From Thalassorhabdomicrobium marinisediminis (GTDB lineage: Bacteria; Pseudomonadota; Alphaproteobacteria; Rhodobacterales; Rhodobacteraceae): a stretch of DNA of 64,000 nt. Location of the stretch: positions 124,001 through 188,000 of the forward strand of contig NZ_QCYG01000003.1 in the NCBI RefSeq assembly GCF_003072065.1, given 5' to 3'. Positions 1 to 3,023 of the stretch are shown piece after piece; position 1 is the first letter of the stretch, and every line of letters starts with the position of its first letter. The position numbers and the translations under genes are program-made. The notes under the pieces are model-generated. The model was not told the origin of the DNA, ran no database searches, and was given only the letters and a program-made list of their open reading frames with translations.

Positions 1-1115
1 GGGATCAGCGCCAGCGGCGGCACCGGGCGCATGAATTCGACGATCGGATCGAACCAGCCGCGGAACCAGTTGCTTAGCCCCATGGCATAACCCAACGGAA
101 TGCCCACCGCCGCGCCCAGCAGGAAGCCCACGATCACGCGGAACAACGAAAACCCGAGGTGAACGGTGAGATAGACGTTCTGGTAGCCGTATTTCGCCAC
201 GTCGATGAACCGCGCCCAGACCACTTCGGGCGCGGGCAGATACAGCGGTTGCATCTGCCAGCCCTGATTGGGGGTGACGTTGATGGTGCCGCGGTCGGTG
301 ATCGCCACCCGCGCGAAGTCCAAGTTGAAGGACGGCGCGCGCTGCAGCAGATTGCCATCCTCATCCACCAGACTGGCGTCGAACTCGAATTCCTGCCCAT
401 TGATGGCCACGATCCGTGCACCATCGTCGCGGCGGTTCACGTCGTCGTTGCGGTCCCAGGACACGATTTCGCTGCGATAGACCGTGATCTCGGTCTGGTC
501 GTTCTTGGCAAAGCCGTCGCCGGGGTCGATCTCGGCCGGTTCGCCCACTTCGCCGGCGTCCAGCACGTTGACGAAGACCACTGCATCGTCGCGGTTTCCG
601 TCGGCGTCCTCAACGGTGTAGGTGAAACTCTCCTGTCCGGTGAAGGGCCCCGGCAAGTGCAGGAACGACGGGATCAGCGAGGATCCGGTGAACGTGCCCC
701 AGATGATGAAAATGAAGATGATCGACAGGATCGAGGCCGCCGTCTCGGAGCGCACGGCGCTTTCATCCCCGAAGGTCACCGTCTTGAGCGAGGTGAAATC
801 CCGCGTCGGCGTCAGGAACGACTTGATCGCCCGCCAGACGAACATGAACATCAGGATCAGCAGGATATAGCCGAGGATGTAGGGCAGCCCGTTGATCGCA
901 GCGAGAAAGACGTTTTGCGTCTCGGTCCAGAGCTCGGTGCCGAGCGTGCCGAACTGGTATGAGAACGTCTCCCACCCGGTGGCGATCTCACACCCTTCGG
1001 GCGGGGTGAACCCGTCGCCGACGCTTTGTCCATCGGGAACCGGTGTGGCGCGAAGCTCGGTGGTGGTGACACCCAAACGGTCGCGGGTGCACAGAAGGTT
1101 AACAAGTCCAGCCAT
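1..1115 (-). CDS. tauC: Taurine ABC transporter permease TauC, 3' end cut by window edge, with large inserted domain
   Basis: Inner-membrane permease of the taurine importer. I translated the minus strand by hand from the ATG at 1115; 371 codons are open to the window edge, so the gene is incomplete. The stretch around residues 289-345 (QPLYLPAPEVVWARF, then GFSLFRVIVGFLLGAAVGIP) matches the TauC/SsuC permease core. Predicted membrane helices lie at about 71-95, 127-144 and 318-340. Unusually, about residues 145-288 form a hydrophilic, acidic stretch placed between the first canonical helix and the PLYLPAP motif. It contains FTYTVEDADGN and later GTINVTPN, which look like cadherin/VCBS-type beta domains. 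An N-terminal extension of about 70 residues is also present. The ATG follows the tauB stop by 2 bp (TAA-CG-ATG) and uses a GAGGGGGG ribosome site inside tauB. Taurine specificity is inferred from tauA, tauB and the regulon; another sulfonate is possible. Confidence 0.88.
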   Translation of the reverse strand, partial: MAGLVNLLCTRDRLGVTTTELRATPVPDGQSVGDGFTPPEGCEIATGWETFSYQFGTLGTELWTETQNVFLAAINGLPYILGYILLILMFMFVWRAIKSFLTPTRDFTSLKTVTFGDESAVRSETAASILSIIFIFIIWGTFTGSSLIPSFLHLPGPFTGQESFTYTVEDADGNRDDAVVFVNVLDAGEVGEPAEIDPGDGFAKNDQTEITVYRSEIVSWDRNDDVNRRDDGARIVAINGQEFEFDASLVDEDGNLLQRAPSFNLDFARVAITDRGTINVTPNQGWQMQPLYLPAPEVVWARFIDVAKYGYQNVYLTVHLGFSLFRVIVGFLLGAAVGIPLGYAMGLSNWFRGWFDPIVEFMRPVPPLALI

Positions 1116-1117
1116 CG

Positions 1118-1924
1118 TTATGCGCCCCCCTCGGTGCGACCCATGATTTCTTCTTCCATGTCCCAGATCATCGTGAGGATTTCTTCACGTGTGGGGGCGT
1201 AGTCTGGGTGTTCCTTGACCTCGCGCAGGTCGGCGTTGACGCCCAACTCTGCAAACGGCAGGCGGTATTCCTTGTGGATGCGGCCGGGGCGCGGGGCCAT
1301 GACCAGTACCCGTTCGCCCAGAAGCAACGCCTCGTCGATCGAGTGGGTGATCAGGATGATCGTCTTGCCGGTCTCTTTCCACAGCTTGAGCACAAGACTT
1401 TGCATCTTCTCACGCGTGAGCGCGTCGAGCGCGCCCAGCGGCTCATCCATCAGGATCACGTCAGGGTCATTGGCCAGACATCGGGCCAGCGCCACACGTT
1501 GCTGCATGCCGCCCGACAGCTCATAGACCATCTTTTCCTTGAAGTCCTGCAGGCCGACGACGTCGAGCAGATGGTCGACGTTGCCCATGTAGTCGGATTT
1601 CTTCCGCCCGGCCATGCGGGGCCCAAAGCTCACGTTGTCGCGCACGGACATCCACTCGAAAAGCGCACCTTGCTGGAACACCATGCCGCGCTCGGCGTCG
1701 GGGCCTTCAACCACGTGGCCGTTGATCCGCGTCTCGCCGCCCGTGGGGGCCAGAAACCCCGCAACGATGTTCAAAAGCGTGGTCTTGCCGCACCCCGAAG
1801 GGCCCAGAACGCTCATGATTTCGCCCGGTTTGATGTCGAGCGTCACATCCTGAAGGGCTTGCACATAGGTGCCGTTCGGCAAATCGAACCGCATGGAGAT
1901 ATCGTCGATGACCAATCCGGACAT
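1118..1924 (-). CDS. tauB: Taurine ABC transporter ATP-binding protein TauB
   Basis: ATPase that powers the TauAC importer from the cytoplasmic face (268 aa). Walker A is GPSGCGKTT at residues 41-49, the signature LSGGMQQ is at about 136, Walker B VILMDEP is at about 156, and the switch histidine lies in ITHSID. Its length is typical of the SsuB/TauB/NtrD family. The ATG is preceded by a GGGGG ribosome site. It lies 100 bp after tauA with a strong stem-loop in the gap, and 2 bp before tauC, so the three genes form one unit with a likely drop in transcript level after tauA. Family assignment is firm; taurine as substrate rests on TauA and on the neighbouring tpa/xsc genes. Confidence 0.93.
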   Translation of the reverse strand: MSGLVIDDISMRFDLPNGTYVQALQDVTLDIKPGEIMSVLGPSGCGKTTLLNIVAGFLAPTGGETRINGHVVEGPDAERGMVFQQGALFEWMSVRDNVSFGPRMAGRKKSDYMGNVDHLLDVVGLQDFKEKMVYELSGGMQQRVALARCLANDPDVILMDEPLGALDALTREKMQSLVLKLWKETGKTIILITHSIDEALLLGERVLVMAPRPGRIHKEYRLPFAELGVNADLREVKEHPDYAPTREEILTMIWDMEEEIMGRTEGGA

Positions 1925-2024: not shown

Positions 2025-3023
2025 TTACATGTCGAGGCTCGACAGCGGTCCGGTGTTGATGTTGCCCTCATAGCTGTCGAGGGCCGCGTCGATGGAGCCG
2101 GATTCCACGAAGACGTCCGCCACCCCTTTCAGGAAGGACGGTGCGGCGCTGCCCAGCCAGGCTTCGCCCAGTTGCTCTTCGACCGGGGGGAAGACGAAGG
2201 TGTCGAGCGTGGCGCGCGTGGCTTCAAGGTCCATGCCCGCGTCCTGCGCGATGACCGACAGCATCTCGTCGGTGTGCTCGCCCGAGTTCCACTTGGCGTT
2301 GGCTTCCGCGGTCACCGCAAGGAACTTCGCGACGGTGTCCTCATTCTCGGCCACCCAGGCAGTGGGGGCAGAGGTCACGTCGAAGACCAGAATGCCCAGT
2401 TCGGTTTTCTCGTCGCCCGTCAGCAGCACGTTGCCATGTTCAAGCGCGCGGCGCAGCGAGCCGCCCCAGCCGCACATCATGTCGACCGAGCCCTGTGCAA
2501 TCGCTGCCGCACCATCGGGGGGCGACATGTCGACGATTTCCAGCGAGGTCAGATCGACGCCGAAGTGGTCCATCTGGCGCAGGAAGCCGTAATGCGCCGC
2601 GGTGCCCAGCGGCACGGCCACCTTGGCCCCGGCAAGGTCTTCGGCCGAATTCTTGTCGATCTCGAGGTCGGAGCGCACGACGCAGTTGTCGTTGTCCGCA
2701 TAGGACACGGCCACGTCGAGGATCTGCAAATCCTGCCCGGCCGAGGTCGCGACCACGAAAGGCGGCACGCCCTGGCTGACGGACATGTTCACATCGCCTG
2801 AGGCCATGGCCGCCGACATCGCGGTGCCGGTGTCGAAGGAGACCCAGTTGACCTCCATGCCCAGCGCCTCTTCGTAGTCGCCGTTGACCTTGGCGTATTG
2901 GAACGGCATCGGCCATTCGAGGAAATAGCCGACGGTGATGGCGTGACCATCGGCCATGGCCGTTGAGCCGGTCATGGCGGCGACAGCACCCAGAACGACG
3001 GCACGTGTGGTTGATTTGATCAT
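2025..3023 (-). CDS. tauA: Taurine ABC transporter periplasmic binding protein TauA
   Basis: Periplasmic solute-binding protein of the taurine importer (332 aa). A Sec signal peptide covers about residues 1-24 (basic MIKSTTR, hydrophobic core, AMADG cleavage region). The mature part shows the NMT1/SsuA-like fold: ITVGYFLEWPMP at the start, an FDTGTAMSAAMASGDV loop, and the VGYF/ILVFDV strands. It is the first gene of tauABC. The ATG at 3023 has a CAGGGGAT ribosome site. Upstream there is a plausible promoter and a weak TauR-type direct repeat. The name rests on similarity to roseobacter TauA and on the full taurine pathway elsewhere in the window. Confidence 0.9.
   Translation of the reverse strand: MIKSTTRAVVLGAVAAMTGSTAMADGHAITVGYFLEWPMPFQYAKVNGDYEEALGMEVNWVSFDTGTAMSAAMASGDVNMSVSQGVPPFVVATSAGQDLQILDVAVSYADNDNCVVRSDLEIDKNSAEDLAGAKVAVPLGTAAHYGFLRQMDHFGVDLTSLEIVDMSPPDGAAAIAQGSVDMMCGWGGSLRRALEHGNVLLTGDEKTELGILVFDVTSAPTAWVAENEDTVAKFLAVTAEANAKWNSGEHTDEMLSVIAQDAGMDLEATRATLDTFVFPPVEEQLGEAWLGSAAPSFLKGVADVFVESGSIDAALDSYEGNINTGPLSSLDM

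Follow-up and report, generated by a model that had tools for sequence, protein, structure and literature searches.

The window, the whole stretch of 64,000 nucleotides analysed here (Thalassorhabdomicrobium marinisediminis, contig NZ_QCYG01000003.1, positions 124,001 to 188,000), begins inside a gene for a TauC-type permease, which is accompanied by genes for a TauB-type ATPase and a TauA-type binding protein, all on the minus strand. The permease frame starts with an ATG at window position 1115 and is open as far as the window edge over 371 codons, in agreement with the preliminary description. The complete gene (L002:7571-9115 on G000:C19) encodes 514 amino acids without an internal stop. 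The features are listed below.

1..1115, minus strand: tauC-type permease, codons 1-371 (open reading frame; BPD_transp_1 at 99.5 bits for the whole protein)
G000:C19:123571-124002: tauC codons 372-514 and the stop codon, all but two bases beyond the window
888..1115, minus strand: N-terminal extension, residues 1-76 (residues 1-45 of the Octadecabacter type)
813..887, minus strand: extra transmembrane helix, residues 77-101 (from the L004 model and the hydrophobic segment in relatives)
744..812, minus strand: connecting loop, residues 102-124, with LKTVTFGDES at 110-119 (near invariant in 221 relatives)
687..743, minus strand: helix of residues 125-143, TM1 of canonical TauC
252..668, minus strand: inserted domain, residues 150-288
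558..656, minus strand: F-G unit, residues 154-186 (FTYTV...VVFVNV), first in order (Big_9 positions 64-88 of 89; strands 160-169 and 175-185)
255..557, minus strand: linker and A-E unit, residues 187-287, second in order
228..239, minus strand: LPxP motif (LPAP, residues 293-296), at which the protein returns to the canonical permease (P294 and P296 in 221/221)
1118..1924, minus strand: tauB-type ATPase (ABC_tran, 117 bits; the best NCBIfam model, the taurine ATP-binding subunit, scored under its cut-off)
2025..3023, minus strand: tauA-type binding protein (best model TIGR01729, 142.1 bits)

The BPD_transp_1 score of the permease was well over the gathering cut-off of 26.4 and covered residues 338-504, which identifies the protein as an ABC importer permease. 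The TauC equivalog model NF007545 was the best-scoring model, yet its 229.4 bits lay under the cut-off of 342, and the protein was thus assigned to a TauC-like subfamily rather than to the equivalog; E. coli TauC scored 563.1 bits, and an insert-less Gemmobacter TauC was likewise under the cut-off (321). Residues 1-45 are an Octadecabacter-type addition outside the general architecture, and Cys9 and Cys42 within this extension were present in 15/15 rows. Beta strands were predicted in the Octadecabacter-type extension (window 981-1115). An N-terminal extension with an extra helix at residues 71-95 had been proposed; the extra helix stood, but its position shifted, as the model of the relative L004 has helices at 47-75 and 77-101. 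The extra-helix region was a hydrophobic segment in the relatives inspected (uncounted), with a low identity of 0.43. The full-length L004 model was weak in the core (mean pLDDT 68, pTM 0.45), and its core part was not used. In the LKTVTFGDES loop, V113-D117 were identical in 221/221 insert-bearing sequences, and the conservation of the region 108-128 was 0.85, as compared to 0.88 in the core and 0.66 in the insert. This loop is probably cytoplasmic; the segment between the extra helix and TM1 was neutral (mean charge -0.5), and charge left the topology unsettled.

Approximately 135 extra residues, absent from canonical TauC, separate core helix 1 from the LPxP motif. The motifs FTYTVEDADGN, VVFVNV, GTINVTPN and QPLYLPAP were all found where they had been reported, as were the extra residues themselves. 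In nine insert-less genes (those of E. coli, Sinorhizobium meliloti, Gemmobacter, Caballeronia, Variovorax, Rhizobium and Paracoccus alcaliphilus, and those at L147 and L148), only a few residues separated the helix from a PLF(L/V)P-type motif, the nearly direct passage described for canonical TauC. The insert was present in all of the best 80 of 305 relatives, picked by similarity, with a length of 136-153 residues including flanks. An open reading frame with the same insert was found at 232 loci, and the 221 distinct sequences among them were aligned. The number of residues between positions 150 and 290 was 126 in 132 of the 221 and 141 in the window protein and 8 others. P149, G160, F164, N223, D224, G276, G285 and M288 were invariant in the 221 sequences, while H153, P155, Y166, D206, R214, P282 and Q287 were near-invariant (214-220/221); among 81 sequences, 18 columns were invariant, two of them within the LPxP flank. 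The net charge of the insert averaged -9.5 (range -20 to +10) and was positive in 4/221. The median dN/dS of the insert was 0.14 in 46 usable of 105 pairs from 15 Octadecabacter-type genes, with dS near saturation (1.9), and the value for the core was 0.034 (100 pairs of Octadecabacter-type genes). The insert is under purifying selection. A sequencing frameshift or gene fusion joining two genes, the first way in which the observation might have failed, was ruled out by the 221 distinct homologues that carry the insert in one open frame.

A resemblance to the cadherin- or VCBS-like beta repeats of secreted adhesins had been suggested for the insert, and the profile searches bore this out. At E ≤ 0.1, Pfam Big_9 matched 81/81 inserts, that of the window included, NCBIfam tand_rpt_95 matched 78/81 and Cadherin_5 matched 33/81. 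In the window protein, the Big_9 match comprised only the last 25 of 89 positions and lay at the front of the insert; against a gathering score of 23.6 bits, the insert alone scored 30.3, the rotated insert (A-E placed before F-G) 35.8, the whole protein 21.3 and the first 371 residues 22.9. A single stretch was matched, rather than a tandem-95 array. When the profile was compared with PDB sequences, only the F-G strands were hit, and weakly: E ranged from 0.0045 to 0.017 for KIAA0319L, an RTX protein and a protein with a cadherin domain, and was 0.87 for one more match. The insert belongs to the Big_9 / tandem-95 cadherin-like family and is a conserved globular domain. It resembles the Big_9, Cadherin_5 and tandem-95 adhesin repeats in sequence family, strand motifs and a length of approximately one repeat, and differs from the repeats of secreted adhesins in being a single copy, in having F-G ahead of A-E and in lying within a membrane transporter. 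The same genome also encodes a protein of 529 amino acids (L083:895-2484) with a Big_9 domain in the canonical order, followed by a segment that looks Hint-like by eye.

AlphaFold2 modelled the insert alone, from 81 rows, as a compact beta domain (pLDDT 88.0, pTM 0.78) whose strands span TauC residues 160-169, 175-185, 206-211, 216-218, 234-238, 262-264, 268-272 and 278-282, and the same strands appeared in the full-length L004 model. Ordinary membrane loops, the other way in which the described domain might have proved illusory, were ruled out by this confident beta model and the mostly negative charge of the insert. Mean-field covariation was calculated from the 221 sequences, which are related (effective number 153). 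The best 60 pairs contained F-G (165-177, 166-178, 161-183), F-C (169-236, 167-237, 169-234), B-E (217-277, 218-280), D-E (272-278, 269-281) and A-B (208-218) pairs as well as one joining the insert ends (153-287). The F-C, F-G, B-E and parallel A'-G pairings are those of the Ig Greek key. Among 5,253 antiparallel five-pair ladders, F-G ranked second and third, and those in which the beginning of C meets the end of F and the turn between F and G (168-233, 169-234, 168-237) ranked 4th, 10th and 14th; the top parallel ladder paired G with A (184-208). The strongest antiparallel ladder, at 152-215, joined pre-F residues with the A-B region and is not a canonical Ig pairing, and neither are 162-267, 162-280 and 159-212, which were also among the best 60 pairs. 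We infer from these pairings an Ig Greek key with F-G moved to the front. Foldseek found no neighbour of the insert in PDB and BFVD at E ≤ 0.001, an RTX adhesin chain ranking 5th with E 0.76 and TM 0.19, which is no match; the best Z in VIA-align 2 was only 2.4, no good match either. The absence of a sequential structure match fits a permutant and is not proof of one. The insert would be one circularly permuted Ig-like sandwich whose ends meet, as insertion into a loop demands.

Because the Big_9 match of the window protein lay at the front end of the insert, the absent initial portion of the domain was suspected to come after it and not before. The insert departs from the canonical Big_9 strand order of A to G: F-strand residues stand at its front (F164 in 221/221, Y166 in 218/221), and the best natural-order match started at model positions 64-66 from the lower quartile upward (minimum 5). 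A canonical model was built from thirty Big_9 repeats, in the Pfam phase, taken from ten genomes. Mean scores of the 221 inserts against this model were 16.7 bits in natural order, 26.8 when rotated, 17.8 when rotated with shuffled A-E and 20.8 for F-G alone; since F-G alone exceeded the natural whole insert, the gain of rotation over F-G alone was only ca. 6 bits. The rotated order outscored the natural order in 221/221 and the highest-scoring of its five A-E shuffles in 203/221 (18 failed), and the top score of a shuffle with F-G was 31.7. The A-E unit alone averaged 7.3 bits as compared to -0.7 for shuffles (99th percentile 4.5) and exceeded its own five shuffles in 207/221 (14 failed). As the sequences are related, counts over the 221 are not independent trials. 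In a small Pfam test, rotated sequences scored 26.7-35.8 bits and all shuffles 16.6-21.7 bits; three of five shuffles also aligned beyond the F-G part, at lower bits.

The profile-profile comparison pointed the same way. The A-E unit alone scored 34.4 over 63 columns, whereas 200 column shuffles, confined to occupied columns, averaged 9.8 with a maximum of 17.0, and none of the 200 reached the real score; when gap columns were shuffled as well, one shuffle scored 132, above the real score, which was taken as an artefact. In natural order, the insert aligned over 92 columns spanning the boundary between two successive canonical repeats. The A-E profile matched the canonical repeats at L281 (34.2 bits) and L289 (32.0 bits), which are a biased pick because the ten genomes had been chosen for weak insert-profile matches, and that at L083, which had not been so chosen, with 21.9 bits; the maximum of the shuffled controls was 8.3, a value exceeded by 8/31. 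Rotated-sequence scores, the profile alignment of A-E alone and covariation together make it very probable that the insert is one repeat period begun at the E/F turn, with F-G before A-E, both in its family identity and in its permutation. The F-G-first strand order of this cadherin-like insert is new. If real, such a natural circular permutant would be equivalent to a single tandem-repeat period taken out of phase and offer a clean example of repeats seeding new topologies.

The carriers of the insert were tabulated with an insert profile, which matched 181/394 Rhodobacteraceae genomes (180/393 genera) with one match per genome. Beyond what the preliminary description had noted, the strands are permuted, and the architecture is common in Rhodobacteraceae rather than peculiar to this genome. 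In a class-level sample, 16/385 genomes matched at E ≤ 1e-5, five of them strongly (E ≤ 2.4e-49) and eleven weakly; ten of the eleven weak ones were scanned, and Big_9 repeats were found in 10/10. In a phylum-level sample, 13/398 genomes matched at E ≤ 1e-10, twelve from Rhodobacteraceae. Among 54 genomes of the genus to which the Ruegeria locus L079 belongs, 18 had the insert, and one more had the gene cut by a contig end. Many carriers are marine, judging by name. The insert was also found in Gammaproteobacterial MAGs and Candidatus Achromatium palustre. In 34 insert-less Rhodobacteraceae genomes, the nearest core was 52% identical and was insert-less or otherwise built; with no close insert-less relative in these 34 genomes, no recent loss was seen. 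A core tree of 42 rows was constructed from 17/221 inserts (mutual identity under 80%, except for a starting set), 3 plasmid inserts, 21 insert-less sequences and 1 sequence carrying a different insert. All 20 rows with the Big_9 insert formed one group (SH-aLRT 93, one change), so that the insert apparently had a single origin, although the tree is limited by the long branches of its distant rows. The Gammaproteobacterial rows L058, L064 and L068, two of which are MAGs by title, sat among Rhodobacterales rows, reflecting either transfer or misbinned contigs. Among the 30 listed of 109 plasmid records, 6 extended into the insert; 5 of the insert-bearing records were annotated, solely as ABC transporter permease. 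None of the titles and abstracts found in searches of open-licence papers concerned a TauC with a cadherin- or Ig-like domain, which is weak evidence of absence.

A TauB-type gene accompanied the insert-bearing gene at all 80 loci retrieved, including some on short contigs, and a TauA-type gene at 75. The tauA-type product of the window scored under the cut-off of the TauA equivalog TIGR01729 (304.25), and its nearest solved protein was the taurine-binding 6ssy (E 1.1e-19). Cys114 and Cys184 were present in 76/76 TauA proteins encoded beside insert-bearing TauC, that of the window included, and absent in 5/5 canonical TauA proteins. As judged from their sequences, the partner TauA proteins are a type of their own, and the two cysteines possibly form a subfamily disulfide. 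A Tpa-like aminotransferase gene was found near the insert-bearing gene at 45/80 loci (one more candidate, at L020, was left out at 28% identity) and a MocR-type regulator gene at 39/80; neither was found beside tauABC in the present genome. The Tpa-like aminotransferase was 67% identical to a record annotated as tpa, hypotaurine--pyruvate aminotransferase. The substrate is likely to be taurine or hypotaurine, as suggested by these similarities. In Ruegeria pomeroyi, tpa (SPO0673) is described as adjoining tauABC (PMC4334477). For the R. pomeroyi tauABC mutants SPO0674 and SPO0676, PMC10130141 reports a growth loss of ca. 92% on taurine, and a taurine drawdown significantly reduced in just one of the two; this phenotype is reported for tauABC in general and bears on the insert only if that TauC carries it. 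Convergent with tauC and next to it lies another ABC system (by eye an ATPase, two permeases and a binding protein; L002:3628-7219), and homologues of its genes were present at 11-12 of the 81 loci that were clustered.

Based on these results, the best explanation is as described below. A TauC-type permease has acquired, in the loop that joins core helix 1 to LPxP, a single cadherin-like domain of the Big_9 / tandem-95 kind; the domain would stand in the periplasm near the channel mouth and offer a docking surface for substrate-loaded TauA, as MalF P2 does for MalE. If the core is N-in like canonical TauC, the insert, coming after TM1, would be periplasmic, on the side where TauA docks, and it is probably extracytoplasmic. 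The constraint on the insert, the want of a close insert-less relative in the 34 genomes and the TauA and TauB genes alongside count for a function. Because MalF P2, which contacts MalE, is the best precedent, docking or orienting of TauA appears most likely to be that function, whereas the fact that canonical TauABC works without such a domain counts against it. For the whole statement, which joins the permuted domain in the loop to the TauA-docking role, we hold the balance to be even. The suggestion that the insert holds taurine near the channel gained no support.

A structural or anchoring module, which would bind Ca2+ or the cell wall or stabilise the extra helix without contacting TauA, seems unlikely. 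Related domains of this fold function in surface adhesins, many carriers have marine names, and D206 (220/221) and N223 with D224 (221/221) are at the sites of the canonical AxDD and ND motifs; however, of the canonical motif the DxDGD half is missing, and the insert is single, whereas adhesins are long arrays. Regulation of the permease by the insert, as an extracytoplasmic sensor or gate signalling via the LKTVTFGDES loop to the ATPase, is quite improbable in our estimate: while the nearly core-level conservation of this loop and the identity of V113-D117 speak for it, the loop seems to be equivalent to the N-terminal YGVPGxG stretch of insert-less canonical TauC, and its conservation may reflect contact with TauB alone. 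A neutral decoration, which an ancestor fixed a single time and which has persisted because it was never lost, would suit the one origin on the core tree and an insert evolving faster than the core. Such a decoration is already disfavoured by constraint, given the median dN/dS (with dS near saturation), the 18 invariant columns in 81 sequences and the lack of an insert-less descendant among the 34 genomes examined, and we consider it highly improbable.

As for the docking reading, MalF P2 has an Ig-like fold and occupies the loop between TM3 and TM4. We know of few grafted periplasmic domains on ABC importer permeases, with MalF as the model, and to our knowledge MalF P2 is recognised neither as a derivative of an adhesin repeat nor as permuted. 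The insert described here lies in a permease of a different family and in a different loop. MalF P2 of the E. coli MalFGK2 complex is described as a beta-containing periplasmic loop domain of a type I ABC permease (PMC3150292), and this domain (residues 91-271) is reported to contact the binding protein MalE (PMC3150292, PMC8134467). TauC of E. coli and rhizobia is 46-50% identical in the core and, like that of the window, has TauA and TauB genes as neighbours (seen for E. coli and Rhizobium); it is without the insert and, as read from the alignment, without the extra helix before TM1. The nearest solved relatives by sequence, the CmpB (9u9z) and NrtB (8w9m) permeases, matched the core only (query residues 321-511), and their chains of 279-280 residues are too short for such an insert.

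A wider scenario, in which the TM1-LPxP loop took up one period of an adhesin repeat array out of phase, this period became a permuted TauA-docking domain and spread through marine bacteria, and in which the loop is a general slot filled independently elsewhere, is put forward tentatively and with some doubt. If true, it would provide a second grafted case of other descent, in 180/393 genera and tied to taurine-type uptake, and would let one ask whether domains holding binding proteins evolve repeatedly. The TauA type of these systems and a second insert lineage fit a loop able to take a docking domain; neither proves it. The second lineage consists of TauC-like permeases (L149:169-2097 of G417 and L314-L320) with open frames of 644-653 codons and a segment of ca. 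300 residues at the TM1-LPxP site. This segment is helical by eye, lies outside any Pfam match in L149 and is unrelated to the Big_9 insert; its lineage was found in 7/345 Rhodobacteraceae genomes and is rarer than the Big_9 insert.
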